This document shows, in pieces, positions 10,050 to 50,888 of a stretch of 64,000 nucleotides of DNA. The position numbers and the translations under genes are program-made. Under the pieces are notes generated by a model, which saw nothing but the letters and a program-made list of their open reading frames with translations, was not told the origin of the DNA and ran no database searches. The first letter of the stretch is position 1. Each line of letters opens with the position of its first letter. The stretch comes from Asaia lannensis NBRC 102526 (lineage in GTDB: Bacteria > Pseudomonadota > Alphaproteobacteria > Acetobacterales > Acetobacteraceae): contig NZ_JAMXQU010000004.1 of the NCBI RefSeq assembly GCF_024054035.1, forward strand, positions 62,001-126,000. Reading direction: 5' to 3'.

Positions 10050-10238
10050 AAATCACGGCAGGGAACTGGACAGGTGCTGCATAGTGCTCGTTATTATTTG
10101 AAAAATAAGTGAAGCGAACGTGCGTTGAAGAATATGAACGCGGACTTTAGATAGCGCGCTGAACAGAAGCATTAACTGCGTACATCATCAGGGGGTCGCA
10201 TCGGGCGCTCTCTCCCGGTTATCATCCAGAAAGTGACG

Positions 10239-11549
10239 ATGCGGCCCATGTCTACAGATAATACTGCTCCCATGACCCAGTCTCCCGCACCCCAGTCTTC
10301 GGATCAGCCTGCCGACCAGACGCCACCTGCTGCGCCCGCTCAGCCTGCTGTCATCAACCCCTATGTTCTGCCGCCAGACCTGCCGACCAACGATGCAGGG
10401 CAGGGGATCCATTTCGACTTCAACTGGGGCGCACGCGTTCTGCTGCCAAAACGTCCTGACGGGCGCTGGCGGGCAACGCTCACGGATCTCGACAATTCCA
10501 CGATCATCTTTCAGGGCGAGCTGGAAGAAGGGCATCTGTCGTCCACCAAGAAATTCTTTATCCGCTTTGCAATCGATGTCGAGCGTCTGTCACCGGACGG
10601 CACCGAGACCAAGGTATTGCGTCATGAATTCGATGCGCGCGGCAAGATCGTGCTTGTTCAGCTGCCGGTCGGCACGCTTGGCGACACGATGGGCTGGTTT
10701 CCCTATGTCGCGCGCTTTGCAGAGCAGAGCGGTGCGCGGGTCATCTGCACCATGGCCAAGGTGATCATTCCCCTGTTCGCCAAGGCCTATCCCGGGATCG
10801 AGCTCACAACGAAGGAAGAATTCGAGCAGAGCCCGCTCAGATCGCAGGTTTACGCCAGCTATAATATCGGTCTGTTTTTCGAAGACGACGATACCATCCA
10901 CCAGCCCTGCGATTTCCGCTATGTCGGCCTGCATCGTACGGCAGGCTATATTCTGGGTGTCGATCCGACGGAAGCGCCCCCCAGGATTGTGCTCGATGAC
11001 GATACGCGGCCCATCGAGGAGCCATATGTCTGTATCGCGACACAGGCCTCGGCCCAGTGCAAATACTGGAATAATCCGGGCGGCTGGCTGGGGGTTATTA
11101 CCTATCTGAAAAAGCAGGGCTACAGGGTAATCTGTATCGACCAGAAGCCGTTCAGCGGTGCTGGGATCGTCTGGAACCAGATCCCTAACGGCGCCGAAGA
11201 TGAGACAGGCAACCGACCGCTGAGCGAACGGGCGCGCTGGCTCAAGCATGCCGATCTTTTCATCGGTCTCAGCTCGGGTCTGTCCTGGCTGGCCTGGGCC
11301 ATGGGCACAAAAACGGTCATGATCTCGGGGTTCACGCACCCGAACAACGAGTTCTACACGCCATGGCGTATCATCACCTGGCATTCCTGCAATTCGTGCT
11401 GGAACGATCCGCGTCACAAATTCGACCATAACGATTTTCTGTGGTGCCCGAGACACGCCAATACCGATCGTCAGTTCGAATGCTCTAAACTCATCTCGAC
11501 CGACGTCGTCACGAAGACCATCGCTCAGGCCCTCGATCTGCAGGTCTGA
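10239..11549 (+). CDS. Autotransporter strand-loop-strand O-heptosyltransferase (TibC/AAH family)
   Basis: A 436-residue protein of the TibC/AAH family, which transfers heptose from ADP-heptose onto serines of beta-helical adhesin repeats in the cytoplasm. A Pro/Ala-rich tail of about 45 residues precedes the enzyme. Four cysteines near the C-terminus (C384, C387, C403, C415, spaced C-x2-C-x15-C-x11-C) match the iron-binding finger known in TibC; G-L-S-S-G-L-S-W-L-A is the probable nucleotide-sugar site. GTG 10233, ATG 10239 and ATG 10248 are all possible starts. No adhesin gene is adjacent; the best candidate target starts at 24486. ADP-heptose must come from genes elsewhere. Confidence 0.85.
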   Translation: MRPMSTDNTAPMTQSPAPQSSDQPADQTPPAAPAQPAVINPYVLPPDLPTNDAGQGIHFDFNWGARVLLPKRPDGRWRATLTDLDNSTIIFQGELEEGHLSSTKKFFIRFAIDVERLSPDGTETKVLRHEFDARGKIVLVQLPVGTLGDTMGWFPYVARFAEQSGARVICTMAKVIIPLFAKAYPGIELTTKEEFEQSPLRSQVYASYNIGLFFEDDDTIHQPCDFRYVGLHRTAGYILGVDPTEAPPRIVLDDDTRPIEEPYVCIATQASAQCKYWNNPGGWLGVITYLKKQGYRVICIDQKPFSGAGIVWNQIPNGAEDETGNRPLSERARWLKHADLFIGLSSGLSWLAWAMGTKTVMISGFTHPNNEFYTPWRIITWHSCNSCWNDPRHKFDHNDFLWCPRHANTDRQFECSKLISTDVVTKTIAQALDLQV

Positions 11550-23925: not shown

Positions 23926-24485
23926 AGGATGAGAGACGAGAAGTGTTAACACTTCTCGCCTTGGGTGAAGTGCCAATCTTTACTTGATGGTCAAGTAATC
24001 AAGCCCGCGTGAAAAAGTAACTGATAGATTGTTTTGTTCATAAAGTGAGTTTGTAATGGTAAAACCTCGTTAAATTCCATCTTATTCGGTATTTTGATGG
24101 TTAATAACCAACAATTTCTTAATGAAATGAAAAAAATTTTCTTATTATAGAAACGATGAATAAAGGGTCCTCGATGTCTTTAAACTGTCCAAAACTAGTG
24201 ACCAGATTGTGGGATTGCTGCATGAGTATATTAGTTAAAAAAACAATAACATAAGTACTCATTTAAATAAAAAACGTCATTAGATAGTAAAAAATCATCA
24301 CCCAAGAGCCTTGGCGATTCGTCCACTTCCATTGTCTTTGTGTTGGCCTGTATGTTGGCCCAATAACAACTGACTTCCCTGCGTCGATACGAACTGATTG
24401 GCTTGAAGGCTCGGGAAATCTGCGCCTGTTTTGCCTGTCTTACTTCGATCTTCGTTCGGAAACGTCGATAATAAAAGGAAGTGAT
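23926..24485. other. AT-rich 560-base intergenic region upstream of the Hint adhesin
   Basis: The longest gene-free stretch in the window. Apart from the palindrome at its left end, bases from about 23990 to 24300 are strongly AT-rich with A- and T-runs, unlike the flanking genes. From about 24300 composition returns towards average, up to the ribosome site AAGGAAG before 24486. An 89-codon minus-strand frame from 24567 down to 24298 starts inside the adhesin gene and resembles nothing I know. The region probably holds the adhesin promoter and may bind a nucleoid protein; acquisition with the adhesin is also possible. Confidence 0.5.
23937..23958. terminator. Perfect 22-base palindrome after the dehydrogenase gene
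   Basis: Two 11-base arms, CGAGAAGTGTT and AACACTTCTCG, meet with no spacer 11 bases after the stop codon. It can act as a terminator, though it lacks a T-run and a loop, so a protein-binding dyad is equally possible. Confidence 0.5.
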
Positions 24486-27155
24486 ATGGCAGCGCTAACT
24501 GGTTACTGGTCTGCGGTGAATGTAAACGGACAGACGATGTTCCAGAGTGGAACCACGTCTGTCGCACCGCCTGTCACCTTCGGGACGCACGCGAACCTCA
24601 CGATCACCAGCGGTGCGACATTATCCGGCCTCACCGGATCGAGCATGATTGTCACGGTGCAGTCCGGTGGAACTCTGGCAGGCAACAACCTGACGGGTGG
24701 AACACTCGGCGTCGCCAATGGTGGTGTGCTCAGCGGCAATATCCTGAACGGTGTAGGCACGACGCTGAGTTCAGGCGCGCAGTCGATAGGCGATACGTTT
24801 CAGGCCGTGGGGACGGGGATCATCTGGTCCTATGCGCTCAGAGGGGCAACCGTCACCGATGCGACAGTCGACACCAAGGGCTATCTGCAGCTTCAGTCGG
24901 GGGCTACAGGGTCCAATATCACGGCGATCAATGGCGGCTCCGCCTCTCTCGCGGCTGACACGACAACCGGCTTTCAGGCACTGAACGGTGGTTATGTCGC
25001 TTCCGGGAACATGACGTTCTCCGGCTATTCGGGCAATGGAGATGTCGTTCCTACGGGGGCTGTCCTGAATGGCATATGGTCGGCGGTCAATGTCAATGGA
25101 ACGACAGTATACCAGAACGCCACGACGACCGTCAGCGGTCCGGTCATTCTCAATGCCGGTGCCTCTCTGTACGTCAAGAGTGGTGCAAACGTATCGGGCC
25201 TAACCTGTATTTCAAACGCTATCGTTACTGTCAGCGTCTACGCGGGCGGAAGCGTCACATCGTCGCATATCACCCGTGCCTATGTCCGGGTCGATAACGG
25301 AGCCTCTCTCAGTCATAACCAGCTCGATGGGTGTGACGTCACCCTGAGTACCGGCGCGAGCTCCACCGACGACACCTATTCGTGGTACAACTTCGCAGTA
25401 CAGTCTGTGAAGGTTGCCAGTGGCGCGACGATCAGCAGTGCAACCGTCAACAACAATACGACTGTCAGCGCAGCCACGGGCGCCAATGTGAACGGTCTTC
25501 AGGTTTTTTCGGGCGGCTCTGCCGTCTTCGCTTCGGGGGTCAATCTTTCCGGATTTCATGCCGATGCCGGGACGTATCTGGCAACCTATACCTCTATCGG
25601 TGGCACAGTCACCATCCCCACCACGCCGCCCAGTCAGCCGGGTACCGTCCTGACGCATGTCTGGAGCGCGGTTCTGTCAAATGGCGTGACCGTTTTCAAG
25701 AATGCGCTCAGCTCGGTTTCGGCGCCGGTTTCACTTACCGCCGGTACCGTTCTGTACATCACCAGCGGTGCGGTCGTCAGCGGTCTGAACAGCCTCGCGA
25801 ATACGATCTATGTGCAGAATGGCGGGACATTGCTCGATTCATACATCGCAAACGGGCTGGTCAACGTGAGTTCCGGAGGGATAACGAACGGGAACAAGTT
25901 CAATTCCGATTTTGTCACCGTTATGTCCGGCGGGAGTTCGGTGAACGATATCTTCTACAATAGCGGATATACGTCCGACACCTCGACCATCCAGGCGGGG
26001 GGCACCATGATCAATGGGCAGGTGGGCTCGGGGGCCACTGTCTCTGCAGGTATCGGATCCGTTGTACAGGATCCTTCGGTCGGGACCGGAGGCTATCTGA
26101 TCGTCAACAAGGCTGCGAACGACGTATGTTTCGTCAAAGGGACGCGCATCCTGACCGATCGGGGCGAAGTTCCGGTTGAGGATATCCGTGTGGGCGATGC
26201 GATTGCCTGCCAGGGAGAAAATGGCGTCGAGTTCCGGCCTGCGATCTGGGTGGGCAGCCGTTTCAACCGTCTGGAGCCATGGCAGCCCCTCGACCTGGCC
26301 GGATATCCCGTACGTATCGAGGCAGGCGCTTTCGGCGATGGCGTGCCGACGCGGGATCTCTTTGTAACGCCGGAGCACTGTTTTGCTTTCGAAGGGCGTA
26401 TGCTCCCCATTCGCATGCTCGTGAATGGCACGACAATCGCTTATGACACGTCGATCAGGAGCTACGAATATTTCCATATCGAGCTGGCCGATCACGCAAT
26501 CATCTTCGCCGAAGGCGCAGCAACCGAGAGCTATATCGATACAGGCAACCGTCGCAGTTTTACGCAGAACGGAAACCTGACGAGCCTGTCCCGGTCCGAG
26601 GGCACGCCGGATACGCCGCGTTATGCGTTACCGCTCGACGTAAGTCGCGATTTTGCTGAGCCACTTTACCGTCGTCTGGCCGGAGGGGCGTGTCTTGAGC
26701 AGGATAACCGGGATGACCTGACGCAGGATCCGGATCTGATGCTGATCGATATTCACGGGCACCGCTTCAGACCCGTAAGGCGTGAGGCGACCCGCGTTGT
26801 CTTCATGCTCCCTCAGGGCAGCGAGCACGTACGTCTCGTCTCACGGGCGTCGCGTCCGTGCGATACGATCGGGCCGTTCGTCGATGACAGACGGCGGCTG
26901 GGTGTGCTCGTCGGGCGTATCGATCAGTTTTCCAGCCTAAAACATCGCGAAATCACGGGTCATCTGACAACGGAGACGCTGAGAGGCTGGCATGCGATCG
27001 AGGCCGAGGCCTGCCGCTGGATGGATGGCGACTGTATCTTGCCACTTCACCTCGATAGTGCTGCGGCGGGCGCTGTCGTCAGTATCGAAATTCTGGCTGC
27101 CGGGCCTTATCTGGTCGAGAGCCGAGTGGAAGAAAGGGCGATCTCGGTGGCCTGA
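24486..27155 (+). CDS. Adhesin-like protein with strand-loop-strand repeats and a Hint domain
   Basis: An 889-residue protein. Residues 8 to about 540 form three units of about 150-195 residues, each starting W-S-A-V (W8, W198, W393) and continuing with Ser/Thr/Gly-rich strand-loop-strand repeats of the AIDA/TibA autotransporter kind. A Hint (Hedgehog/intein) domain follows: D-V-C548-F-V-K-G-T-R-I with the nucleophilic cysteine, and T628-P-E-H631. About 200 residues (roughly 690-889) close the protein. There is no Sec signal peptide and no beta-barrel, which suggests type I export through the C-terminus. Hint autocleavage or attachment is plausible, not shown. AAGGAAG precedes the ATG. Confidence 0.87.
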   Translation: MAALTGYWSAVNVNGQTMFQSGTTSVAPPVTFGTHANLTITSGATLSGLTGSSMIVTVQSGGTLAGNNLTGGTLGVANGGVLSGNILNGVGTTLSSGAQSIGDTFQAVGTGIIWSYALRGATVTDATVDTKGYLQLQSGATGSNITAINGGSASLAADTTTGFQALNGGYVASGNMTFSGYSGNGDVVPTGAVLNGIWSAVNVNGTTVYQNATTTVSGPVILNAGASLYVKSGANVSGLTCISNAIVTVSVYAGGSVTSSHITRAYVRVDNGASLSHNQLDGCDVTLSTGASSTDDTYSWYNFAVQSVKVASGATISSATVNNNTTVSAATGANVNGLQVFSGGSAVFASGVNLSGFHADAGTYLATYTSIGGTVTIPTTPPSQPGTVLTHVWSAVLSNGVTVFKNALSSVSAPVSLTAGTVLYITSGAVVSGLNSLANTIYVQNGGTLLDSYIANGLVNVSSGGITNGNKFNSDFVTVMSGGSSVNDIFYNSGYTSDTSTIQAGGTMINGQVGSGATVSAGIGSVVQDPSVGTGGYLIVNKAANDVCFVKGTRILTDRGEVPVEDIRVGDAIACQGENGVEFRPAIWVGSRFNRLEPWQPLDLAGYPVRIEAGAFGDGVPTRDLFVTPEHCFAFEGRMLPIRMLVNGTTIAYDTSIRSYEYFHIELADHAIIFAEGAATESYIDTGNRRSFTQNGNLTSLSRSEGTPDTPRYALPLDVSRDFAEPLYRRLAGGACLEQDNRDDLTQDPDLMLIDIHGHRFRPVRREATRVVFMLPQGSEHVRLVSRASRPCDTIGPFVDDRRRLGVLVGRIDQFSSLKHREITGHLTTETLRGWHAIEAEACRWMDGDCILPLHLDSAAAGAVVSIEILAAGPYLVESRVEERAISVA
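24507..26120 (+). repeat. Three tandem protein repeat units inside the adhesin gene
   Basis: Units begin at 24507, 25077 and 25662, each opening with Trp-Ser-Ala-Val, then N-G and a Thr-rich strand, then S-G-A-x-x-S-G-L. Similarity is at protein level; the DNA copies have diverged, so these are old duplications rather than a slipping DNA repeat. Confidence 0.75.
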
Positions 27156-30081: not shown

Positions 30082-32229
30082 TCAGTCGAGCGTGGAGAGG
30101 GCGTCGGCTACATCCGGGTCGAGGCCGAGATCGCGATAGATGACCGACATGGGTACGATCTCGTCCCACTGACTGAAAGCCTTTTTATCCATACCGAGAT
30201 GATGGGGCATCAGCACGATCGGTGGCGGATCATCCATGAACCTGATGCGCAGCGCGTTCCATCGTGGCGCGATATGCCTGTGATAAACGGTCGAGAGCGC
30301 GCACTGGTCGATACACCAGTTTGTCGGGTTCGATGAATGATACGTTCCGACGATGTAATCGTGTAGTTCCTGAGCGATGACAGGCACAAGGGCGGTTTCG
30401 CCAAAATAGGAAACCCCCGCACCGAAGCCCCAGGGCTCTCCGGCAATCTGCCTGCCATCCCTGTCATAGGCGTAGAGCCTGAAGCCGTAATCGAAATCCC
30501 TCGTGAGTGCATCCGCGAGCGCAACGAAATCTGCCGGAAACAGGGCGTCTGCATCGAGGGTCATCACGGGCCCGCTCATCAGTCGCGTGACTTCGGGTAG
30601 TAGCAGATAGCGCAGGCAGGAAAAGCTGGCTGGATCGCAGTGACGGAGCGAGCCCTGGGCGAAGGCGAGCGCAACCGGGCTGCGGTGGCGCTGCAACGCA
30701 TCGGATACAGCAGCAAGAAACCCGACATGCCTGTCCGTTCCTCCGGCGAGACCCACAACAAGCTGGATCGAACCGGGCTGGAGCCAGTCTGGTCGCTCGG
30801 CCTGAATGCAGGCCTGTATCAGCGAGGCGATAAGGCGTGGAAGAAAGGCGAAGTAACGCTGGTCGCAGCCTACCGCCAGAACAAGTTTCTTTTCAGCTTT
30901 CTCTCCGGCGCGGTTCTGCGGCATCCCGTACCAACGCCATGAATCGATGTTGAGCGGACGAGGGCCGGGATCGAAAGGCTCAGAGCTACGCCATGTGTAG
31001 AGCCCGGCATTGAAATGCGCGACATAGCGTTTGTTCGCACGGGAAAGGCTACGCGCCATACTGTAGTGAGCATCGGCCTTGTCGCGTTCGCCTTCGAGCC
31101 ACGCCTTGTGACCTTCCAGCAGGGCGAGGCTATGCGATTGCCCGTTCAGGCGTCTTTCCTCGTCAAGAAAGACCTGTCTTTTGTCCGCAGGGCAATGTCC
31201 CCATTTTTCCTCAAGCCGCGCGGTGTAGAGAGAATGCGACTGGAAATCGAGCTGAGGGGGCAGGCGTTCCGGAACGAGGAGATCGTCGAAGCCGGGATCC
31301 AGCGGTCGCCCAAGCATTTTCTCGAGGTGCGGCCACAGGGAGGCATGACAGAACGGACGACCGAGGCACTCACGGAACTCGGATGGAGAGAAGGCATCGC
31401 TGCAGGAAGAAGCACCTTCGATGATATCCGCGATGTCATTCAGTGCCTTTGTGCAGCCGATCTCGTCACCCAGCATACGCGCGTGAAGTGCAGACAGAGC
31501 GAGCGCTTCGATCTCGTACGAAGTGCCTTGCAGTGCAGCGATGCAAAGCGCTGCTTCGTCGTCGAGACCGATCAGGAGACAGAGCCGGGCGAGGAAGAAC
31601 AGGTGCCGTATCTCGGTCACATCGGTCATGGTCAGCAGAAGCTGCCGTGAAAGATCGAGCGGATCGGCCCAGGGTGAACGCCCGCAACCCTGATCCGACC
31701 CCACTCTTCCGAGTATGGGCAGGATGCTCGCGATTGCCCTGTCGAATGCAGGGCTGGGCCAGCGGACTGCCTGAGCATGGTTGTCGAGATGCATGATCTC
31801 TCCGTCGCAGGACAGGCAAAGCAGGTGTAGCGGAATACGTGCCTCACCCAGCACGAAGACGAACGCCTCCAGTCTGGGGCGCAGGATCTCACCGCTTTCC
31901 AGCAACCAGTTATGCGCACAGGCTGCGGTCAGGGAGGGGAGGATTCCGGCATCGATGATGAGGAAGTGCTCCCACGCTGCGCAATGCCCGACTGCCAGAA
32001 AAGTTTTTCCCTCGCGGCAGCTGATATGCAGTGGGCCGGCCCTGAGCGCCATGACAGGCATGTCGTTTTCAAAACCGGCAGGCACCAGTTCAAATGGCAG
32101 ATCGTGTCCCGATGCGATTTCCACAGGCTGCGCGCGACCGGCGACGACATCCTCGATCGATGCCGGAAGGAGCATTCCTCCCTGACGACAGACGATTGCG
32201 CCATGCCAGCTGAGCAGAATGTCGGTCAT
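30082..32229 (-). CDS. Large protein with a GT-A glycosyltransferase-like C-terminal domain
   Basis: A 715-residue protein I do not recognise as a whole. The first 330 residues have no clear motif; the middle (about 340-430) is helical and TPR-like. From about residue 450 it resembles a nucleotide-sugar transferase: hydrophobic strand K-K-L-V-L-A-V-G-C, then V-M-T-L-D559-A-D561-A-L-F, a DxD metal site with usual strand context, then W-C-I-D-Q and a late H-H-L-G. No signal peptide, so probably cytoplasmic. Given the heptosyltransferase, the adhesin and the secretion cluster nearby it may act on a surface protein or glycan. Inference only. Confidence 0.6.
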   Translation of the reverse strand: MTDILLSWHGAIVCRQGGMLLPASIEDVVAGRAQPVEIASGHDLPFELVPAGFENDMPVMALRAGPLHISCREGKTFLAVGHCAAWEHFLIIDAGILPSLTAACAHNWLLESGEILRPRLEAFVFVLGEARIPLHLLCLSCDGEIMHLDNHAQAVRWPSPAFDRAIASILPILGRVGSDQGCGRSPWADPLDLSRQLLLTMTDVTEIRHLFFLARLCLLIGLDDEAALCIAALQGTSYEIEALALSALHARMLGDEIGCTKALNDIADIIEGASSCSDAFSPSEFRECLGRPFCHASLWPHLEKMLGRPLDPGFDDLLVPERLPPQLDFQSHSLYTARLEEKWGHCPADKRQVFLDEERRLNGQSHSLALLEGHKAWLEGERDKADAHYSMARSLSRANKRYVAHFNAGLYTWRSSEPFDPGPRPLNIDSWRWYGMPQNRAGEKAEKKLVLAVGCDQRYFAFLPRLIASLIQACIQAERPDWLQPGSIQLVVGLAGGTDRHVGFLAAVSDALQRHRSPVALAFAQGSLRHCDPASFSCLRYLLLPEVTRLMSGPVMTLDADALFPADFVALADALTRDFDYGFRLYAYDRDGRQIAGEPWGFGAGVSYFGETALVPVIAQELHDYIVGTYHSSNPTNWCIDQCALSTVYHRHIAPRWNALRIRFMDDPPPIVLMPHHLGMDKKAFSQWDEIVPMSVIYRDLGLDPDVADALSTLD

Positions 32230-39929: not shown

Positions 39930-42164
39930 GTGAACCATCGTGATGGCGTCGCTGCGGACAGCGAAACCCAGAACCCCGTCTATATCCGGCTTCGCGCCGC
40001 GATGGCTGCTGCCAAGTTCCATGGTCTGGATCTTGATATGCGCGATTTCGCGGCAGAGCCGGGGGAGGCCTCGCCGTCTCCGGCCTCCCTTGCGCGCTGG
40101 CTGAACGATAACGGTGCCGTGGCCAAGGGGATGCGTATCAAGTGGCGCTATCTCGTTCGCATGCAGAATACGCCGCCCATCGTTCTGATGTTCCGGGACG
40201 GGTCGGCTGCTCTGATGGTGCGGGCCGATCCCGAGAAGAATATTGTCTGGCTGCGCGATCCTCTGGGCGATGAGGGGAGTGTTCCGGTAGCGGTCGATGA
40301 GTTACGCCTCACGCAGGTCTGGACCGGCGATATCCTGCTGGTAAAGAGACGGCGCGATTTGTCCGAAGCCGATGCACCGTTCGACCTGATGTGGTTCGTA
40401 CGCGTTGTTATGCGCGAGAAGCAGTCGCTGCGTGATATCCTGTTTGCATCGATGGTGTTGTCTGTTCTGCAGATCTTTCCGGCGATGATCGTCATGCAGG
40501 TGCTCGACCGTGTGGTGAATTACCACTCCATGTCGACCCTCGTGTCCATCACAGCAATTGTCGTCATTCTCAGCTTCTATGAGACGCTTCTGACTTATGG
40601 GCGCCGCGAACTGACGCTGGTCATGACGACACGCGTTGATACGCGTATCTCGCTTCATGCGTTCAATCGTCTGCTCGCCTTGCCACTCGAATTCTATGAA
40701 CGAGAGCAGACGGGACGTATTCTCGGCCGTTACATGGCGATTTACAAAGTCCGTGACTTCCTTACAGGAAAGCTCATGTCGACCTTTCTCGACATGTTTA
40801 CACTGCTGGTCATCCTGCCGATCCTGTTCTGGATGAGCTCGACACTGGCCTGGATGACGGTAGCCTGTGCCGGTCTGATCGGTCTTGTGATCGTGATTTT
40901 CCTGACGCCTATGACGCGTGTTTACAACAAGATGATCCGTGCAGAGATGGAACGCAGTTCTATCCTATACGAGACCGTCGCGGGTATCCGCACCGTCAAG
41001 ACGCTGGCTCTGGAGCCGACCCGCCGCGAAAAGTGGGATGAGACGACTGCAGATGTCATCCGCTGGAAACTGGCTGCCGGAAGAATGCAGAACTGGCCTG
41101 CGACACTGGTCATGCCGCTCGATATGTTTATCAATCGCGGCATTATCCTTGTGGGCGCCTATCTGATTTTGACGGGTTCGAGCAGCATTCAGCCTGGTGC
41201 GCTCATGGCGTTCATGATGTTGGGTGGCCGTGTTGCCGCGCCTCTCGTCGGGCTGGCAAAAATCCTCGAAGATGTGAATGAGGTCATGACCTCACTGGGT
41301 GAGGCCGGTCTCGTCCTGAACCAGCCGACCGAGACCAAGGCGCTCACCTCGGGTTTGAGGCCGCCGATCAAGGGGGCGCTCTCTTTCTCACAGGTCGATT
41401 TCAGCTATCCCGGCACGACCATCAAGGCGCTGAACGACGTCAATTTCGAGATCCCGGCGGGTACCATGCTCGGTCTTGTTGGGCGTTCGGGCTCGGGTAA
41501 GTCGACCGTAACACGCCTGCTGCAGGGTGTGAGCCGTAGCTACACCGGTTACCTCCGTCTAGACGGGGTCGAGCTCCGAGAAATCAATCTGAGCCATTTG
41601 CGCCGTTCTTTCGGCGTGGTGCTTCAGGACAACTTCCTTTTCCGTGGCACGGTGCGCGATAACATTACAGCGGGCCGTCCGGGCTATACGATGGATGACG
41701 TCATCCGCGCGGCACGCCTCGCCGGTGCCGAGGAATTCATCGACCGCATGCCTGCGGGATACGACACGCCGATCGAGGAAGGCTCCACCAATATCTCGGG
41801 TGGACAAAGGCAGCGCCTTGCTATTGCGCGCGCCGTGATCAGCGATCCCAAGCTCATGATCCTCGATGAAGCGACATCTGCGCTCGATCCCGAGAGTGAA
41901 GCGCTGGTCAATGCCAATCTGCAGCGTATCGGCAAGGGGCGTACGATGGTTATCGTCTCCCACCGCCTGTCATCGCTGGTCGACTGTCATCAGATCTGCG
42001 TCATGGACAAGGGCAAGGTTGTCGATGTGGCGCCCCATAACGTGCTGCTCGAACGTTGCGAGATCTATCGCATGCTCTGGATGCAACAGAACCGTCATGA
42101 ACATAGCACCCGTAACCAAGGCACCGATCACAACGATGATCCCATGCTGATGGATGAGGAATAA
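39930..42164 (+). CDS. Type I secretion ABC exporter with inactive C39-like domain (HlyB type)
   Basis: A 744-residue inner-membrane exporter. Residues 1 to about 145 form a C39 peptidase-like domain with no catalytic cysteine at its start, so it recognises but does not cleave the substrate, as in HlyB. Six membrane helices follow (about 165-430), then an ABC domain with Walker A G-R-S-G-S-G-K-S-T (518-526), signature I-S-G-G-Q (622-626) and Walker B M-I-L-D-E. The start is GTG at 39930 after GAGGAAG. Three bases separate it from the HlyD gene. No outer-membrane channel or substrate is adjacent. Confidence 0.92.
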   Translation: MNHRDGVAADSETQNPVYIRLRAAMAAAKFHGLDLDMRDFAAEPGEASPSPASLARWLNDNGAVAKGMRIKWRYLVRMQNTPPIVLMFRDGSAALMVRADPEKNIVWLRDPLGDEGSVPVAVDELRLTQVWTGDILLVKRRRDLSEADAPFDLMWFVRVVMREKQSLRDILFASMVLSVLQIFPAMIVMQVLDRVVNYHSMSTLVSITAIVVILSFYETLLTYGRRELTLVMTTRVDTRISLHAFNRLLALPLEFYEREQTGRILGRYMAIYKVRDFLTGKLMSTFLDMFTLLVILPILFWMSSTLAWMTVACAGLIGLVIVIFLTPMTRVYNKMIRAEMERSSILYETVAGIRTVKTLALEPTRREKWDETTADVIRWKLAAGRMQNWPATLVMPLDMFINRGIILVGAYLILTGSSSIQPGALMAFMMLGGRVAAPLVGLAKILEDVNEVMTSLGEAGLVLNQPTETKALTSGLRPPIKGALSFSQVDFSYPGTTIKALNDVNFEIPAGTMLGLVGRSGSGKSTVTRLLQGVSRSYTGYLRLDGVELREINLSHLRRSFGVVLQDNFLFRGTVRDNITAGRPGYTMDDVIRAARLAGAEEFIDRMPAGYDTPIEEGSTNISGGQRQRLAIARAVISDPKLMILDEATSALDPESEALVNANLQRIGKGRTMVIVSHRLSSLVDCHQICVMDKGKVVDVAPHNVLLERCEIYRMLWMQQNRHEHSTRNQGTDHNDDPMLMDEE

Positions 42165-42167
42165 GCC

Positions 42168-43637: not shown

Positions 43638-43664
43638 GCCAGCGATGATCCAGAGGAGAGTAGG

Positions 43665-45422
43665 GTGGCTTTGAAAACACGCTTGGCATCGATGGTTTCA
43701 CGCGATGCCAAGCTCAGACACGCGATCACCCAGATCGAATCAGGCGAGAACGCGGTCAAGGGATTTGCTCAGCTTGGCCAGCTGGCTACGCAGGGCAATG
43801 TCGAGGCGCAATACCGTACGGGCAAGGCCTATCTCGAGGGGTGGGGAACGCCCCCAAGTCTCGAGGGCGGCACCCGATGGATAAGAAAGGCTGCCGAGGC
43901 CGGTCACGTTCAGGCCCGGCTTATGCTGGCGACCCTCTATCTCATGGGGTTTCCAGAGGATTTCGATGAAAACCGCCCCACGGTCCTTGCGGATAATCGG
44001 GAGCGAAAACGTATCCCCGATTTCGCTCAGGCTGCCCACTGGAGCCGCCTTGCAGCCGAAGCCGGGCAGCCCGATGCCCAGGCACTGCTGGGCTATGTGC
44101 TGACCAATGGTCCCGAGGATCTGCGCGATCTCCCCCAGGCAAGAGACTGGTATGAAAAAGCTGCTGCAGGCGGTTCAGCCCAGGGGCATCTCGGTCTCGG
44201 CATAGCCCTGCATACGCATCCCGATGGGCCGGATGACGTGAAGCGTGGGACTGCCGAGCTGGATCTTGCGGCGAAAGCCGATCTGGCAACGGCCTTCTAC
44301 TTCCTTGCGTGGATCAATGAGCAGGGAATCGGGCAGGAGCGGGATTTTGCGGCAGCCGCGCGCTATTTCGAGAGGGCCGCAGAGCGGGGTGTCGTCCAGG
44401 CACAGACCCGCTATGCACTGTACCTGTTGCAGGGCAAGGGTGTTGCGAGACGCCTGGATCGGGCAGAAACATGGTTGCGACGCGGCGCCATGGGGGGCGA
44501 TGCGGAAGCGGCGGCACTGCTGGGCGATCTGCATATCCGTGGCGAGGATATGGCGCCCAATTATCTCGAGGCGGCCACCTGGTACCAGATTGCGGCTGAG
44601 CTCGGCCATGGCGCCGCGGCACGTGGGCTCGGACTGCTGTATCTGACCGGGACGGGCGTACAGCGCGATCCTGACGAGGCCGCGAAATGGTTTCGTGTAT
44701 CGGCTGAATGCGGCGATCGCGTTGCTGATGCCGATCTCGGCAATCTTGCCCTGACCGGTGTCGGCAATGAGGAGGATCGCGAGGCCATGCAGAGGCGCTT
44801 CCAAAAGGCCGCTGAAGAGGGCGATCTTGTCGGGGCGTTCAATCTCGGCGTCTGCTACGCGGAAGGCGTTGGAACCACCCGTGACGATTCACAGGCGGCG
44901 TACTGGATGCAGCGCGCAGCCGATGGTGTGGTCAATGCGCAGTACTGGCTGGGTAGAATGCATCTTGAAGGGCGCGGTGTGGCTGAAGATATCGGTCTTG
45001 CCATGCAATGGCTTGAACGGGCTGCGCAGGCGCGCATGCAGGAGGCCATGAGCCTGCTTGCCCAGATTCTGGTTTCAGGTCGGGCGCCCCAGGGGCAGGA
45101 CCATGCCAGGGCCTTGTCCCTGTATCGGCAGGCGGCAGAGCAGGGCAATGTCGATGCCATGTTCTCCGTGGGGGCCATGCTTGGCGGCGGGCACGATGTT
45201 GCAACTGACCGGCACGAAGCACAGCACTGGTTCAGGCTTGCGGCAGAGAGGGGGCATGGTCTGGGTCAGCTGATGCTGGGGCGCTATCTCAAACGGGGCC
45301 TCGCGGGCGAAGTTAATCCGCTGGAGGCGCGTATCTGGCTGGAACGTGCCCAGTCGCAGGGAATCGAGGGCGCCACGGCAGAACTGAGCAAACTCGAACG
45401 GCGCCTCGGTGGACGTGACTGA
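43665..45422 (+). CDS. Sel1-repeat (TPR-like) protein
   Basis: A 585-residue all-helical protein of about thirteen Sel1-like repeats, each of about 36 residues with the G-x-x-Y-x-x-G-x-G-V and A-x-x-W-x-x-x-A-A-x-x-G pattern, for instance A-Q-Y-W-L-G-R-M-H-L-E-G-R-G-V. No signal peptide or catalytic motif. Such proteins act as scaffolds. Its place in the secretion operon suggests a cytoplasmic assembly or glycosylation partner. The GTG start at 43665 has GAGGAG 7 bases upstream; the 3' end overlaps the next gene by 14 bases. Confidence 0.85.
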   Translation: MALKTRLASMVSRDAKLRHAITQIESGENAVKGFAQLGQLATQGNVEAQYRTGKAYLEGWGTPPSLEGGTRWIRKAAEAGHVQARLMLATLYLMGFPEDFDENRPTVLADNRERKRIPDFAQAAHWSRLAAEAGQPDAQALLGYVLTNGPEDLRDLPQARDWYEKAAAGGSAQGHLGLGIALHTHPDGPDDVKRGTAELDLAAKADLATAFYFLAWINEQGIGQERDFAAAARYFERAAERGVVQAQTRYALYLLQGKGVARRLDRAETWLRRGAMGGDAEAAALLGDLHIRGEDMAPNYLEAATWYQIAAELGHGAAARGLGLLYLTGTGVQRDPDEAAKWFRVSAECGDRVADADLGNLALTGVGNEEDREAMQRRFQKAAEEGDLVGAFNLGVCYAEGVGTTRDDSQAAYWMQRAADGVVNAQYWLGRMHLEGRGVAEDIGLAMQWLERAAQARMQEAMSLLAQILVSGRAPQGQDHARALSLYRQAAEQGNVDAMFSVGAMLGGGHDVATDRHEAQHWFRLAAERGHGLGQLMLGRYLKRGLAGEVNPLEARIWLERAQSQGIEGATAELSKLERRLGGRD

Positions 45423-48360
45423 CGGGGCACCGCTTTCGTCAAGACGGCCTCCACCAGTCCAGTCCGGCTACGGTCATACGGTCACGCCGCAGGATCGCGC
45501 CGATTGGCAGCGTTGGCACGATGCCAAAGCGCAGGATGCCTATAAGCGTGGGACGGATGCGGTCCATCGTGGTGATACAGCGCAGGCCGTATACTGGCTG
45601 GGTCGTGCGTCACGTATGGCCCATAACAATCCCAACGTCATTTTCGCCTATGGAATGGCGTTGCTCGCAGCAGGCCAATGGGATGGCGCAGCGAAACGCA
45701 TGGTCTGGATTGCCAGACGTTTCGTCATGCGCAAGGCCCTCGTCGGGCAGGCCATTGCGCTTTCCCACCTGGGACGGATGCAAGAGGCGGTCGGGATTTT
45801 CGCGTCCATGCTCTCCCGCTACGCCCCGGCCGAAGAGGCGATGGCCTGGGTTCGACTCTTCACAGCGCATTCCGGCCAGGTTGGCTGGTGTGCGACGAGC
45901 AATGACGGCGTAGTGCGAGGCGAATGTCCTGGTCTGGTCACCATTCGTCTCGATGGTGAAATTGTGGCTGTCGACCAACAGCTGCCTTATGCACTGCCGC
46001 GTGGATGGGAAAAAGCTGGGCGCCTCGATGTCGAGAGCGACGGCAAGTCGTTGTATGGCTCCCCTATCGATCTGACATCTATTCGTCTGATGCATGGTTT
46101 TGTGACGGTGCGCCACCACAGGCTTGAAGGGTGGATCTGGTATCCGGCCGATCCCGACTTTACGCCGCATGTCCTCATCGCCGCAGGGGAAAAACGATAC
46201 GACATTACGGCATCCAAGCTGGAGCAGACAGCGCTTCTCGAAAAGCCGCTTGCCCGCCCGCGCCGTTTCAGTATCTCACTGGACGACCTTCCCTCGGGTG
46301 TCATTACACTGACTGACCGTTACGGGCAGGCTCTGACCGGCAGCCCGCTTTGTTCCGAAGCTGTTGCGCTTCTCGACCTCACGTCACCTGCTCTTTCTCA
46401 GTATAATCTTACAGAGACGGATACGCTTCGATCGGTCGAAAAACCTGCGTTTCCCCAAGTTCAGCCCCGTGTGCCTGGATGCGTTGTCATTATTCCGGCT
46501 TACCGCAACCTTCTTCTCACAAGGCAATGCATCGAAGCTGTCCTGAACGCGGGATCGGACGATATCGAATGTATCGTGATCGACGATGCAAGTCCTGAGC
46601 AGGATCTGCGCAACTGTCTTGCCGGACTCGCCGCGCAAGGAAAAATCACCCTTATCCGTCATGACAGCAACCGGGGATTTACGGCGAGCGCCAATGAAGG
46701 CCTCATGCGCGCTGCCGGTCGGGACGTCATCCTGCTCAACAGCGATGCGCTGTTGCCCCATGGAGGTATCGCGCGCCTCCGGGCATGGCTGGACAAGGAT
46801 GAGCGCATCGGGACCGTCACGCCTTTTTCGAACGATGCGACCATTCTCTCCTATCCCTCCGTTACCCATCCCAACCCGACGCCGCACAGACGCGAGGGCG
46901 CATCGCTCGACAGGATATTTGCGTCTCTGCCCGATGCGGGTCTTATCGATCTGCCAACGGGAAACGGGTTCTGTATGGCGATACGAGGGGACTGTCTGCT
47001 TCAGACCGGGCTGCTGAACGTCGCCGTGTTCGCACAGGGATATGGCGAGGAAAACGATTTCTGTTGCAGGGCATCGGCCTTCGGGTGGCGTCATGTAGCG
47101 GCAACGGATCTGTTTGTGCGTCATATCGGCTCCGTTTCATTCGGGCGTACGCGTACGCTTCTTCTCGAACGTAACCTGCGTATGCTGCACGCACTTCACC
47201 CCCGCTATGAAAAGGCTGTGGCACGTTTCATCGAGTCCGATCCTCTGGCGCCGATACGACGTAATGCAGGGCTGGTGCGTATGCTTGCCCGACGCAAGGC
47301 AGCCGGGTCATGCCTGATCATGGTGACACACGATTCAGGTGGCGGGGTGGAACGTGTGGTGCAGAACAGAAGGCAGCAAGCTGAAGCAGCAGGCAGCCAG
47401 GTCATAATCATACGCCCCCATCAGAAAGGGTGCCGGGTCGAGGATTGCGGGGGTGACACGACCAATCTTGTTTTCGATCTGCCATGCGAATGGGTGGATT
47501 TCATTGCTGTGCTCAGACGTCTGAACGCCGGGCGTATCGAGTGGCACCACCTTCTCGGTCATGCACCGATGATGGTCGATCTCGCCGCTGCGCTCGATCT
47601 GCGCTGGGACATCGTGCTGCATGACTACATATGGTTCTGTCCCCGTATCTGTCTTGTCGGGCCGAATGGCCATTATTGCGGTGAGCCCTCTCTTGCCGGG
47701 TGTGAATCCTGTGTGATGCAGCAGGGATCGCTGATCGATGCGCATCTTTCCGTCGCTGAACTCGTTACACGCTCAGACCGGATCCTGCGCGACGCAAACA
47801 GGGTGCTTTCAGGATCTCACGATCTCAGAAGACGCATGCGTCGCCATTTCCCGGAGCTTGAGGTGGAGATAGAGGAACTTGAAACAGGGATCTTTCCCGA
47901 AACGAGACAATCGCGACCGCTCGATGGCGGGAGGCGCCGTATCTGCATTCCCGGAGCCATCGGTCGTGAAAAAGGTTATGAGATCGTTCTGCAACTCGCT
48001 GAAGATGCCGCAAGGCGTAACCTCCCGCTCGACTACGTCGTTGCGGGCTATACGATCGACGATGACAGGTTAATGGCGACCGGCCATGTTCTGATATCGG
48101 GAGAGTATCGGGAAGACGAAGCGAAAACAGTCATCGAATCGTTCAACTGCGATCTCGGTCTCATACCGTCGATCTGGCCCGAAACCTGGTGTTTTGCCCT
48201 GTCGAATTTATGGGACGCCGGTTTGCGGGCAGTCAGTTTCGATCTGGGGGCGCAATCGGAGCGGATACAGGCGAGCGGTCGGGGTTGCATCGTGCCATTA
48301 GGTATGCCTGTGTCGCTATTGAGTAACGTGTTGCTACACTTGGCACATCAAATGATATAG
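45409..48360 (+). CDS. Fused GT2-GT4 glycosyltransferase with helical N-terminal part
   Basis: A 983-residue cytoplasmic protein. The first 345 residues hold a short TPR-like stretch (about 30-130) and a beta-rich region. A GT2 domain starts at V355-P-G-C-V-V-I-I-P-A-Y, with I-D-D-A-S-P and N-S-D-A-L-L (444-449) as nucleotide-sugar and metal sites and a later G-Y-G-E-E-N-D-F. From about residue 640 a second, GT4-like domain follows, with H-D-S-G-G-G-V-E-R-V, a cysteine cluster (C-P-R-I-C...C-E-S-C) and G-R-E-K-G-Y. Two sugar transfers in one chain are implied. The GTG start overlaps the Sel1 gene, so translation is probably coupled. Confidence 0.82.
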   Translation: MDVTDGAPLSSRRPPPVQSGYGHTVTPQDRADWQRWHDAKAQDAYKRGTDAVHRGDTAQAVYWLGRASRMAHNNPNVIFAYGMALLAAGQWDGAAKRMVWIARRFVMRKALVGQAIALSHLGRMQEAVGIFASMLSRYAPAEEAMAWVRLFTAHSGQVGWCATSNDGVVRGECPGLVTIRLDGEIVAVDQQLPYALPRGWEKAGRLDVESDGKSLYGSPIDLTSIRLMHGFVTVRHHRLEGWIWYPADPDFTPHVLIAAGEKRYDITASKLEQTALLEKPLARPRRFSISLDDLPSGVITLTDRYGQALTGSPLCSEAVALLDLTSPALSQYNLTETDTLRSVEKPAFPQVQPRVPGCVVIIPAYRNLLLTRQCIEAVLNAGSDDIECIVIDDASPEQDLRNCLAGLAAQGKITLIRHDSNRGFTASANEGLMRAAGRDVILLNSDALLPHGGIARLRAWLDKDERIGTVTPFSNDATILSYPSVTHPNPTPHRREGASLDRIFASLPDAGLIDLPTGNGFCMAIRGDCLLQTGLLNVAVFAQGYGEENDFCCRASAFGWRHVAATDLFVRHIGSVSFGRTRTLLLERNLRMLHALHPRYEKAVARFIESDPLAPIRRNAGLVRMLARRKAAGSCLIMVTHDSGGGVERVVQNRRQQAEAAGSQVIIIRPHQKGCRVEDCGGDTTNLVFDLPCEWVDFIAVLRRLNAGRIEWHHLLGHAPMMVDLAAALDLRWDIVLHDYIWFCPRICLVGPNGHYCGEPSLAGCESCVMQQGSLIDAHLSVAELVTRSDRILRDANRVLSGSHDLRRRMRRHFPELEVEIEELETGIFPETRQSRPLDGGRRRICIPGAIGREKGYEIVLQLAEDAARRNLPLDYVVAGYTIDDDRLMATGHVLISGEYREDEAKTVIESFNCDLGLIPSIWPETWCFALSNLWDAGLRAVSFDLGAQSERIQASGRGCIVPLGMPVSLLSNVLLHLAHQMI

Positions 48361-48424
48361 CTTTTACTAAGCATTAGCTGGTGTTATACATCCCTTTATT
48401 CCTCAGGAGAGGGTTTTAGTCACA

Positions 48425-48449
48425 TTGTGCAAAATTATGGTATGCACAA
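48425..48449. promoter_or_regulatory. Inverted repeat upstream of the 48475 gene
   Basis: TTGTGCA and TGCACAA, perfect 7-base arms with an 11-base A/T-rich spacer, 25 bases before the ATG. It looks like a dimeric regulator site and suggests a separate promoter for this gene. Confidence 0.45.
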
Positions 48450-48474
48450 ATAAATCGAAGATGGGTCAGTGCAA

Positions 48475-49410
48475 ATGTCCAATTCCGCGAATTCTTCCGG
48501 GACAGAGCAGGTCGTTCAGCTCAAGGTTCACGCTTCTCTGATGACATTCGATGCGGGACTGTATTGCGTGTTTCTGCCGCCCGAATATGCGGCGCAGAGC
48601 ATCAATGGATATCCTGCTGTAACCGTGGCACAGGCCCCGAACATGCCGAATGGCATCGTGACGATCAAAACCTTCGATGATGACGGCGTTATCAGCAGCA
48701 GTCATGGGAGCGGTGCCGGTGCGGCTCTGGTGCGCGTGGCGCGTGGGCCAGCTCAGGTCATGGTCACGACCTATCAGGCTCCGGATAGCAGCCTGCCTGT
48801 GCCCGGTATCCAGGTGGCCCGCCTCTCTGGTGAGCCGGTTGCTGCACCGGCCGCTGCAGCCGCGCCCGCACCAGCAGCACCGTCGGCTTCACAGGCTGCT
48901 GCCTCTCAGGCCGGTGCATCCGAAGCCAAGCCCGAAGTGGCAGCCCATATCCAGAGACGTGGCGATGTCCTTGCCCGTATCGGAGAATGGATGGGTGAGC
49001 CCGGTAGCCAGAACTGGATCGAAGGATTCGGTATTGCGCCCCAGAGCCTTGTTGCGCCTGAGGATATCGAATATCAGGCCGTTCTCGGAAAAGGCTGGCT
49101 GTCACCCTGGGCTGAAGCCGGTCAGTATTGTGGGTCGCGTGGCATGGCCCTGCCTATTCTGGGGCTTTGCGTTCGCCTGAAGAACGGTGCGGAAGAGAAA
49201 TACGATCTTTCGATCAGTGCGACATTCACGGACGGTACCCGTATAGGTCCGCTGGCGAACGGTGAGACTCTCGAAGCTGAATCCCTCGCACCGCTGGAAG
49301 CTTTCCAGGTCGAGATTGTGCCTCACAAGGCCGAAACCGCCCAGGAAGAGACATCTTCGCCCAAACCCGGCAAGAAGGCTTCGGCGCGTCGCAAGGCGAC
49401 AGTGGCCTGA
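48475..49410 (+). CDS. Hypothetical protein of the secretion/glycosylation locus
   Basis: A 311-residue protein I do not recognise. Residues 1-115 form a beta-rich domain. An Ala/Pro-rich linker (about 120-160) joins it to a second globular part (about 165-290) with W-I-E-G-F-G-I-A-P, W-L-S-P-W, Y-C-G-S-R-G and E-K-Y-D-L-S-I-S-A-T-F-T-D-G-T. The tail is basic (K-P-G-K-K-A-S-A-R-R-K). No signal peptide or membrane helix, so probably cytoplasmic. The C-terminal domain could be a carbohydrate-recognition fold, but that is a guess. GTG 48469 is an alternative start. Confidence 0.75.
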   Translation: MSNSANSSGTEQVVQLKVHASLMTFDAGLYCVFLPPEYAAQSINGYPAVTVAQAPNMPNGIVTIKTFDDDGVISSSHGSGAGAALVRVARGPAQVMVTTYQAPDSSLPVPGIQVARLSGEPVAAPAAAAAPAPAAPSASQAAASQAGASEAKPEVAAHIQRRGDVLARIGEWMGEPGSQNWIEGFGIAPQSLVAPEDIEYQAVLGKGWLSPWAEAGQYCGSRGMALPILGLCVRLKNGAEEKYDLSISATFTDGTRIGPLANGETLEAESLAPLEAFQVEIVPHKAETAQEETSSPKPGKKASARRKATVA

Positions 49411-49421
49411 CCGATTGACGC

Positions 49422-49450
49422 TCCCCTCATACGAAAGTCGTATGAGGGGA
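49422..49450 (+). terminator. Strong hairpin after the 48475 gene
   Basis: A perfect 13-bp stem (TCCCCTCATACGA with its complement) closed by a 3-base AAG loop, 11 bases after the stop. No T-run, but the stem is long and perfect. Confidence 0.65.
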
Positions 49451-49664
49451 ACCATCCACTCGATGGCCCGGGTTCGGAAGACTGCATGGATTTCGATGCC
49501 CGCAGACCGACCGGGCGCTCTTTCCGGTGCCTTGTGCAGCCAGTGTAGATAAGCTGAAAAGCAGCTGATTACGTGCGTCGATACGCTTTGCCAGCGCCTG
49601 TTTGAGATGCGCAGAGCCTCACGCTAGTTTCTGTCTGCCTGCATCAGAATGAAAGCTTCCGGTT

Positions 49665-50888
49665 TTGCGTTTCCTGTTCGTGCATCAGAATTTCCCCGGC
49701 CAGTTTCTGCATCTGGTCAGGCATCTTCATGAGCAGGGCGGTCATGAGATCGTTTTCATTTCCGAAGCCAATGAAGGGCATCTGCCCGGCGTCAGGCGCG
49801 TGCTCTACCGTCAGGATCGGGTGATTTCTCCTCACACCCATCCCTCCCTGCGTGAGCTTGAGATGGGGCTCAGTCGTGCAGAGGCTGTGGCACGGGCAGC
49901 CCAGACCCTGAAATCCCTGGGTTATGTGCCCGATATCATTATCGGCCATCACGGCTGGGGCGAGTTGCTGAATCTCGTCGATGTGTATCCGGCCACACCG
50001 ATCCTCGGATATTTCGAGTTCTTCTATCATACCGACAAGAATGATGTGGATTTCGATCCGGAATTCCCGCCGCGTCCCGATCTTGCGCCGGTTGTACGTG
50101 TCAAGAATGCCATCAATCTTCTGGCGCTCAATCTCAACCAGTACGGGCAGACGCCGACCCTTTTCCAGAAAGGGACATATCCGGATTGGGCCCATGACCG
50201 GATCAGTCTGCTGCGCGAAGGCGTAAATCTCGATCTCTGTGCGCCTGAGCCGGGATTGTTCGAAAAGGATGTCGCAATCGGGCCGCATCTCATACGCCCT
50301 AAGGACAAACTGATTACTTTCGTTGCGCGCAATCTCGAGCCGTATCGCGGCATTCACAGTTTCATGCGTGCGCTTCCCCGTATTCTCAGAGAACGCCCGG
50401 ATGCACGTGTTGTCCTTATTGGCGGGGATGGGACCAGCTATGGTGCGGCGCCGCCGCCAGATGCAGGAAGCTGGCGCGATATCTTCCTGCGGGAGGTTGC
50501 TGGACAGGTCGACCTGGATCGCGTCCATTTTCTCGGTAAGGTGGATTATGACACGTTCCGTCTGACGCTCAGGCGGTCGGATGCCCATGTCTATCTGACC
50601 TATCCGTTCGTGGCATCCTGGTCTTTGAGAGAAGCAATGGCGACAGGTTGCGCCATCGTCGGCAGTCGCACCGAACCGGTCGAGGAGTTCATTGCCGATC
50701 GCCGCAACGGATTGCTTGCACCTTTTCTGGAGCCGGACGGGATCGCTTCGGCCATTCTGGAGATCATCGAGGACAAGGCTCTGGCGAAGACCCTGCGTCG
50801 GGAAGCACGTCGCTACGCCGAATCCGAACTCTCGCTCGACGGCTACCTTGCAAACTACGACGCCCTGATTGCCTCCATCGTCAGGTAA
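49665..50888 (+). CDS. GT4-family glycosyltransferase
   Basis: A 407-residue GT-B fold glycosyltransferase. It starts F-L-F-V-H-Q-N-F-P-G-Q-F, a known GT4 N-terminal pattern, and has F-V-A-R-N-L-E-P-Y-R-G, V-L-I-G-G-D-G, and the sugar-nucleotide site S-L-R-E-A-M-A-T-G-C-A-I-V-G-S-R-T-E-P-V-E-E near residue 330. The start is TTG; its ribosome site is weak. Donor and acceptor unknown; it lies after the secretion and glycosylation cluster on the same strand, so a role on the same glycoprotein or polysaccharide is likely. Confidence 0.87.
   Translation: MRFLFVHQNFPGQFLHLVRHLHEQGGHEIVFISEANEGHLPGVRRVLYRQDRVISPHTHPSLRELEMGLSRAEAVARAAQTLKSLGYVPDIIIGHHGWGELLNLVDVYPATPILGYFEFFYHTDKNDVDFDPEFPPRPDLAPVVRVKNAINLLALNLNQYGQTPTLFQKGTYPDWAHDRISLLREGVNLDLCAPEPGLFEKDVAIGPHLIRPKDKLITFVARNLEPYRGIHSFMRALPRILRERPDARVVLIGGDGTSYGAAPPPDAGSWRDIFLREVAGQVDLDRVHFLGKVDYDTFRLTLRRSDAHVYLTYPFVASWSLREAMATGCAIVGSRTEPVEEFIADRRNGLLAPFLEPDGIASAILEIIEDKALAKTLRREARRYAESELSLDGYLANYDALIASIVR

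Follow-up and report, generated by a model that had tools for sequence, protein, structure and literature searches.

An adhesin-like protein of Asaia lannensis belongs to a large Acetobacteraceae family ending in a Hint domain and a conserved tail

Asaia lannensis NBRC 102526, a member of the Acetobacteraceae, encodes an adhesin-like protein of 889 amino acids in a 64,000-nucleotide stretch of contig NZ_JAMXQU010000004.1 (positions 62,001 to 126,000), which we refer to as “the window”. The gene, at 24486-27155 on the plus strand, specifies an N-terminal “passenger”, a Hint domain, and a C-terminal tail of 203 residues. It has a clear ribosome-binding site, AAAGGAAGTGAT 5' of the ATG. No in-frame ATG, GTG, or TTG occurs between the stop codon at 24288 and the ATG at 24486, which rules out an alternative upstream start with a signal peptide, and the conservation of the family described below rules out a chance open reading frame (ORF). 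The window also encodes a TibC/Aah-type O-heptosyltransferase (BAHT) and a type I secretion cluster (Table 1). The original prediction, made from the sequence alone, described a candidate glycosylated passenger with strand-loop-strand repeats of the autotransporter kind, lacking a Sec signal and a beta-barrel and followed instead by a Hint domain starting at C548 and a ~200-residue tail. To this, the present analysis adds 20 Hint_2 genes in the genome, the conservation of the tail, the BAHT gene, and the only HlyD adaptor of the genome to score above its cut-off.

Table 1. Features of the window discussed in the text (aa, amino acid positions in the window protein)
Feature	Position	Strand	Evidence
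Hint-tail adhesin gene, 889 aa	24486..27155	+	ORF, ribosome-binding site, no in-frame upstream start
Passenger unit 1, aa 1-193	24486..25064	+	39% identity to unit 2, E 3e-27
Passenger unit 2, aa 194-387	25065..25646	+	37% identity to unit 3, E 3e-22
Passenger unit 3, partial, aa 388-547	25647..26126	+	36% identity to unit 1, E ~1e-18
Hint_2 domain, aa 548-686	26127..26543	+	PF13403 117.8 bits; fold match Z 13.7 to 2lwy
Cys548, candidate N-S acyl shift residue	26127..26129	+	C in 80/80 alignment rows, 19/19 own-genome copies
Asp603 (Hint Asp56), Hedgehog catalytic Asp position by spacing only	26292..26294	+	D in 79/80 rows, 13/19 own copies
TxEH motif, T628/H631 (Hint Thr81/His84)	26367..26378	+	T and H in 80/80 rows, 19/19 own copies
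E681-S682-Y683 at intein C-terminal HN position	26526..26534	+	ESY in 80/80 rows
Family-specific tail, aa 687-889, DDRR.LGv / GW..E..RWT.G motifs	26544..27152	+	conserved in 19 own copies and aligned relatives
TibC/Aah-type O-heptosyltransferase (BAHT)	10233..11549	+	TIGR04414 603 bits, cut-off 200
Type I secretion ABC transporter	39930..42164	+	best NCBIfam match type_I_sec_HlyB 523 bits, below cut-off 725.55
HlyD-type adaptor, sole one over cut-off in genome	42168..43637	+	TIGR01843 336.7 bits, cut-off 208.65
Sel1-repeat protein of type I cluster	43665..45422	+	PF08238
Two glycosyltransferases (45409-48360, 49665-50888) and ChW-domain protein (48469-49410)	45409..50888	+	Pfam

The predicted architecture holds, and the idea behind it is now better supported than before. 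The Pfam profile PF13403 (Hint_2) spans residues 547-686 of the window protein with 117.8 bits, against a cut-off of 28.4, and the first residue of the domain is Cys548. An AlphaFold2 model of residues 539-889, built from an alignment of 80 rows (A2: the window protein and 79 of 80 public loci, one duplicate having been dropped), has a mean predicted local distance difference test (pLDDT) score of 86.9 and a predicted template modelling (pTM) score of 0.82. In VIA-align, the Hint part of this model matches the bacterial intein-like (BIL) domain 2lwy, with several inteins tied (Z 13.7, root-mean-square deviation 2.3, 119 residues), and the Drosophila Hog domain 1at0 (Z 10.9). Fold and residues C548, T628, and H631 together place the domain in the HINT superfamily. 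At the position of the C-terminal HN of inteins, all 80 rows have ESY; among the copies within this genome, E (Glu134 of Hint) is found in 19/19, S in 14/19, and Y in 12/19. The HN followed by a nucleophile that marks inteins and splicing BIL domains is thus absent, which rules out a splicing intein. Because Cys1 and the TxEH motif are invariant and ESY replaces HN, we expect, on the basis of known Hint biochemistry, an N-S acyl shift at V547-C548 and thioester chemistry, but no splicing. Self-cleavage at C548, as originally suggested, stays plausible because the active site is intact. In an excerpt of PMC7906309, the active-site residues of human SHH are D243, T267, and H270, with D243 24 residues before T267; Asp603 lies 25 residues ahead of Thr628, a match by spacing only. 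Conservation across the 80 rows is biased upward because the aligned loci are the best 80 of at least 577 matches.

The window protein belongs to a large family of putative surface or secreted proteins in the Acetobacteraceae, each with a variable passenger, a Hint_2 domain, and a constant tail. In the A. lannensis genome (3.22 Mb, 27 contigs), 20 genes score above the Hint_2 cut-off, and two fragments of such genes lie at contig edges. The 19 copies with complete ends, the window gene among them, align across Hint and tail, and their passengers differ widely, from ~144 to 547 residues. A public scan with one peptide pattern yielded at least 577 confirmed Hint-tail relatives, the best 80 of which all bear Acetobacteraceae names and were used as loci (these and the other loci examined are numbered with L here); ORF calling at these loci kept the longest of overlapping frames and hid some opposite-strand genes. 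Relatives and own copies are 33-49% identical to the window protein. At the nucleotide level, L116 of A. krungthepensis shares 86.9% identity with this genome across 4.7 kb, and L092 of Asaia sp. W19 shares 78.6% across 1.6 kb. A word-based search of the open-access literature found no description of this carrier family and no paper containing both “Hint domain” and “Acetobacteraceae”.

Passenger families vary between members, so it is the Hint-tail block that is constant, as a carrier, and the passenger that varies. Among the 69 passengers without a linked BAHT gene, six of them cut at locus edges, an E value of 0.02 gives 12 matches to AIDA-I and eight to the strand-loop-strand model TIGR04415; an E value of 0.001 gives eight to phage tail collar, six to AIDA stalk, and three to Fn3-associated families. 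Two relatives, L040 and L054, match the AIDA-I model with 104.7 and 102.8 bits (the cut-off for a whole AIDA-I is 1200 bits), yet their C-terminus is Hint plus tail; in them, 12 and 13 stretches match the O-heptosylation-target repeat. The idea of an autotransporter-type passenger on a non-autotransporter C-terminus is supported by these two proteins. Eight other Hint-tail proteins (L041, L078, L082, L096, L111, L113, L115, and L117) have much the same passenger start; L041 is matched by tail collar and tail fibre families of phages, and the eight are probably the eight of 69 passengers that match PF07484.

The window passenger itself comprises three imperfect repeats of ~190 residues (pairwise identity 36-39%, E 1e-18 to 3e-27) and is acidic (isoelectric point 4.7) and rich in Gly, Ser, and Thr. 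The strand-loop-strand label reaches it through homologues only, because TIGR04415 misses the window protein: the passengers of L084 and L162 are 38% identical to it, and L084 matches TIGR04415 at 25.3 bits, below the cut-off of 30, and AIDA-I at 34.3 bits. By way of these homologues, we infer an AIDA-like beta-solenoid. The G+C content is 52.5% across the passenger (window 24001-26000) vs ~60% in the surroundings.

Two features of type Va autotransporters, a Sec signal and a C-terminal barrel, were looked for in the window protein and not found, the signal by hydrophobicity only, which is a crude measure. The highest 11-residue mean hydrophobicity within the first 35 residues is 1.02, compared with 1.55-2.09 in four window proteins judged by eye to be exported; there is no hydrophobic start region. 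The measure is not clean across the family, because some relatives score 1.75 or above (among 74 relatives the median is 1.05, two reach 2.0 or more, and at least six others lie between 1.75 and 1.98). Profile searches matched no barrel family in the protein, and the autotransporter barrel PF03797 gave no match in this genome, with positive controls in E. coli and Caulobacter.

The tail has invariant DDRR, GW, and W..G columns in the family alignment and stands at the C-terminus of the aligned proteins. Modelled alone, it has a pLDDT of 77 and a pTM of 0.64; the AlphaFold2 model contains nine short strands within it. No informative structural match emerged from Foldseek (best E 0.025) or VIA-align (best Z 6.1), and the best hit among sequences of solved structures in the PDB has an E value of 0.31, a result that excludes no family. 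In a class-wide sample with up to 18 candidates scored per genome, 3/240 alphaproteobacterial genomes have the tail at E 1e-6, all of them Acetobacteraceae. One gene, at L145 (289-2574, minus strand; the same gene as L197), joins a tail copy to a family 2 glycosyltransferase domain without Hint. As the sole clear case, it rules out the tail as a generally glycosyltransferase-linked domain, and as a single gene it is only a pointer towards glycans. Among 30 loci scored for the tail, L153 has it without Hint in its 183-codon ORF and L148 has Hint in another frame; in a second set of 20 loci, L202 is cut by the locus edge inside Hint, and the remaining scored tails are accompanied by Hint.

Glycosylation of the passenger gains support from the linkage of BAHT genes to Hint genes. 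In addition to its TIGR04414 match, the window BAHT aligns to TibC over residues 44-426 and has four cysteines spaced 3-16-12 like the TibC iron finger, whose cysteines are Cys339, 342, 358, and 370 in an excerpt of PMC4358343. This genome has three BAHT enzymes; the other two lie together, the nearer one 1.6 kb and 4.4 kb from two Hint genes. A BAHT gene, whole or partial, lies within the fetched flanks of 11/80 public Hint loci, and 30 further short loci searched alongside gave none. In four cases it directly adjoins the Hint gene on the same strand: 3 bases apart at L040, <40 at L058 and L084, and with a 4-base overlap at L162. L084 and L162 are the loci whose passengers resemble that of the window protein. 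The glycosylation claim is thus strengthened through linkage and through target repeats (O_hepto_targRPT), which occur only in homologues, the partner enzyme being in the window; it is left without a TIGR04415 match in the window gene itself.

A type I system is the candidate export route. The cluster ~13 kb downstream of the Hint gene (39930-50888) consists of the ABC/HlyD pair, a Sel1 protein, a 983-amino-acid double glycosyltransferase, a ChW-domain protein, and a family 4 glycosyltransferase. Its first five genes recur in order in another genome (G008, L165), with an ABC transporter 93% identical. Three further HlyD matches in the A. lannensis genome are weak and under the cut-off. In genome G071, ~6 kb separate a Hint gene from a type I cluster; the ABC transporter of that cluster shares 71% identity with its counterpart in the window. 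At L164 (2951-11427), ABC and HlyD-like ORFs, with a C39-like start and a TolC-like neighbour recognised by eye, adjoin a Hint gene and a small ORF that has, by eye, a double-glycine leader. Type I export of Hint-tail proteins is a reasoned guess. Elsewhere in the window, a 715-amino-acid ORF (30082-32229, minus strand) looks glycosyltransferase-like by eye, with a DAD motif, and has no Pfam or NCBIfam match at E 0.01.

We consider the best reading, which we hold with moderate confidence, to be an AIDA-like adhesin that carries heptose and is joined to a Hint-tail module, which would cut it off or transfer it at Cys548. The computations establish the architecture, the Hint fold with its residues, the family, and the linkage to BAHT in relatives. 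The proposed mechanism has three steps. First, BAHT would add heptose to passenger serines in the cytosol, as the linkage and the target repeats of homologues suggest. Second, the protein would leave the cell without Sec or a barrel of its own, most likely through the type I system, a step whose chances we judge roughly even. Third, outside the cell or during export, the intact Hint active site may form a thioester at Val547-Cys548, to be resolved either by water or by a tail-bound acceptor, with the adhesin either freed from the tail or fixed to the surface.

Several of the statistics behind this reading carry limits, and several observations weigh against it. Across 110 Acetobacteraceae genomes, with up to 28 candidates scored per genome for copy numbers, BAHT is present in 27, a tail match at E 1e-10 in 56, and a strong tail match (E 1e-30) in 27; BAHT and a strong tail occur together in 14 (Fisher p 5e-4), and in nine of these 14 the two lie 12 kb apart or less, where random placement predicts ~1.6. 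These linkage statistics, like the TIGR04415 comparison given below, ignore kinship, the 12 kb limit was chosen after the distances had been seen, and tail positions were only partly listed for some genomes. In the window, BAHT and Hint gene are 12.9 kb apart and non-adjacent. Heptosylation is not general in the family, because 37/56 tail genomes lack BAHT and 8/27 BAHT genomes lack the tail. TIGR04415 matches 8/11 BAHT-linked vs 8/69 unlinked passengers at E 0.02 (Fisher p 5e-5), a threshold that also admitted chance families. At E 0.1, TIGR04415 has 13 matches in this genome, every one of them within one of five Hint ORFs; only two of the five pass the cut-off, and weak matches also occur in 3/14 control genomes. 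The window protein has no match to TIGR04415 either in the genome-wide search at E 0.1 or with E values up to 10 allowed.

The export step meets similar difficulties. Four RTX-like proteins of this genome (L217, L218, L219, and L220) are candidate type I clients, and likelier ones by the usual standard than the Hint proteins, which rules out that the orphan system necessarily serves the Hint proteins, and the GGxGxD motif was not found in the window passenger. HlyD occurs in 105/110 genomes, so its co-occurrence with Hint-tail proteins is uninformative; the five genomes without HlyD also have no tail match (Fisher p 0.026 at E 1e-10, 0.33 for strong matches). The four RTX-like proteins end alike, in a motif that resembles FLGVTDLKAS and may be a type I signal; it was not seen at the C-termini of the aligned Hint proteins. 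In favour of type I export, one Hint gene has an RTX-like gene ~0.5 kb upstream of it, and the two are neighbours in A. krungthepensis (L116) as well.

Two alternatives are special cases of the heptosylated-adhesin reading and differ in how the thioester ends. The first, which we regard as possible and hold only tentatively, takes Hint as an autopeptidase and nothing else: hydrolysis frees the passenger after export, and the tail is a discarded secretion signal. It accords with an intact Cys and TxEH and an absent C-terminal HN, with the C-terminal position of the tail, and with the proposal of Hint as a releasing autopeptidase for polymorphic toxins in an excerpt of PMC3482391. However, ~200 residues with invariant DDRR, GW, and W..G columns are more than a simple secretion signal should require, and the tail also occurs inside the glycosyltransferase of L145, admittedly one gene.

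In the second special case, which appears unlikely, Hint works as in Hedgehog, and the thioester is attacked by an alcohol (glycan, lipid, or glycolipid) that the tail offers, leading to covalent anchoring. The position of Asp603, close to that of SHH D243, and the tail within a family 2 glycosyltransferase ORF point this way, as does the gene content around some Hint genes: the second BAHT-Hint cluster of this genome also has one glycosyltransferase and two AMP-binding enzymes, and that of L163 (5499-18114) has a 2013-amino-acid polyketide synthase and two AMP-binding enzymes. On the other hand, Asp603 is absent in 6/19 own copies, the tail has no recognised fold in structure searches, the glycosyltransferase case is a single gene, and gene neighbours prove no acceptor. 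Clusters of O-heptosyltransferase and Hint genes lie at L022 (1234-13755), with AMP-binding enzymes, and at L166 (4465-17855), with a 2154-amino-acid ORF resembling a polyketide synthase by eye.

The remaining alternatives fare worse. A model in which Hint and tail remain uncleaved and serve as a cap for folding or anchoring, with the catalytic residues retained for structure, agrees with the lack of any experiment on the family in the open-access literature searched, but it is distinctly improbable given that Cys1, T, and H are invariant (80/80 rows and 19/19 own copies) at 33-49% identity, in a sample that favours conserved members. That the protein is cytoplasmic or released by lysis, for which the absence of a recognised signal and of a proven transporter speaks, we consider highly improbable, as AIDA-type, Fn3-associated, and collar passengers fit surfaces, the substrates known for BAHT, TibA and AIDA-I, belong to the autotransporter adhesins (excerpt of PMC4358343), and this genome holds 20 diversified copies.

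Several known systems come close to the heptosylated-adhesin reading. The closest parallel for the passenger is AIDA-I/TibA with their BAHT enzymes (TibC, Aah): homologues have AIDA-type passengers and O_hepto_targRPT repeats, with a TibC-type gene beside some relatives, whereas the window protein has no detected Sec signal or beta-barrel and ends in Hint and tail. Hedgehog Hog shares the Hint fold, Cys1, TxxH, an Asp at similar spacing, and a family-specific domain C-terminal of Hint; unlike Hog, the protein is bacterial, has an adhesin-like passenger, and has a tail without a solved-structure sequence match better than E 0.31. BIL domains provide the top solved match, tied with several others, but ESY in place of the terminal HN means that splicing is not expected here, and a constant tail follows Hint. 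Hint-processed polymorphic toxins, among which we count MafB, are likewise large secreted proteins that combine a variable module with a Hint domain near the C-terminal end; in the window protein, the variable module is adhesin-like and lies at the N-terminus, and the C-terminus is taken up by the constant tail. No toxin family appeared among the Pfam and NCBIfam matches of the window protein, and immunity partners were not searched for. Type I RTX proteins resemble it in having no visible N-terminal signal and in the acidic, Gly/Ser/Thr-rich composition of the passenger, and differ from it in the GGxGxD motif.

A further extension, which we think quite unlikely, would make Hint plus tail a bacterial counterpart of Hog: the C-terminus of a heptosylated AIDA-type passenger would be moved to an alcohol of a surface glycan or lipid, replacing the barrel as anchor, with the acceptor made or activated by the products of the glycosyltransferase, AMP-ligase, and polyketide genes found in the clusters. 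Such clusters might yield an acyl or polyketide compound that acts as acceptor in a Hog-like reaction.

Acetic acid bacteria inhabit plants, insects, and fermented food. If the reading of a heptosylated adhesin on a Hint-tail module is right, the glycosylated adhesin system of BAHT and AIDA would not be bound to type V secretion, and in these bacteria an entire set of surface proteins would share a Hedgehog-like self-cleaving module as carrier at the C-terminus.

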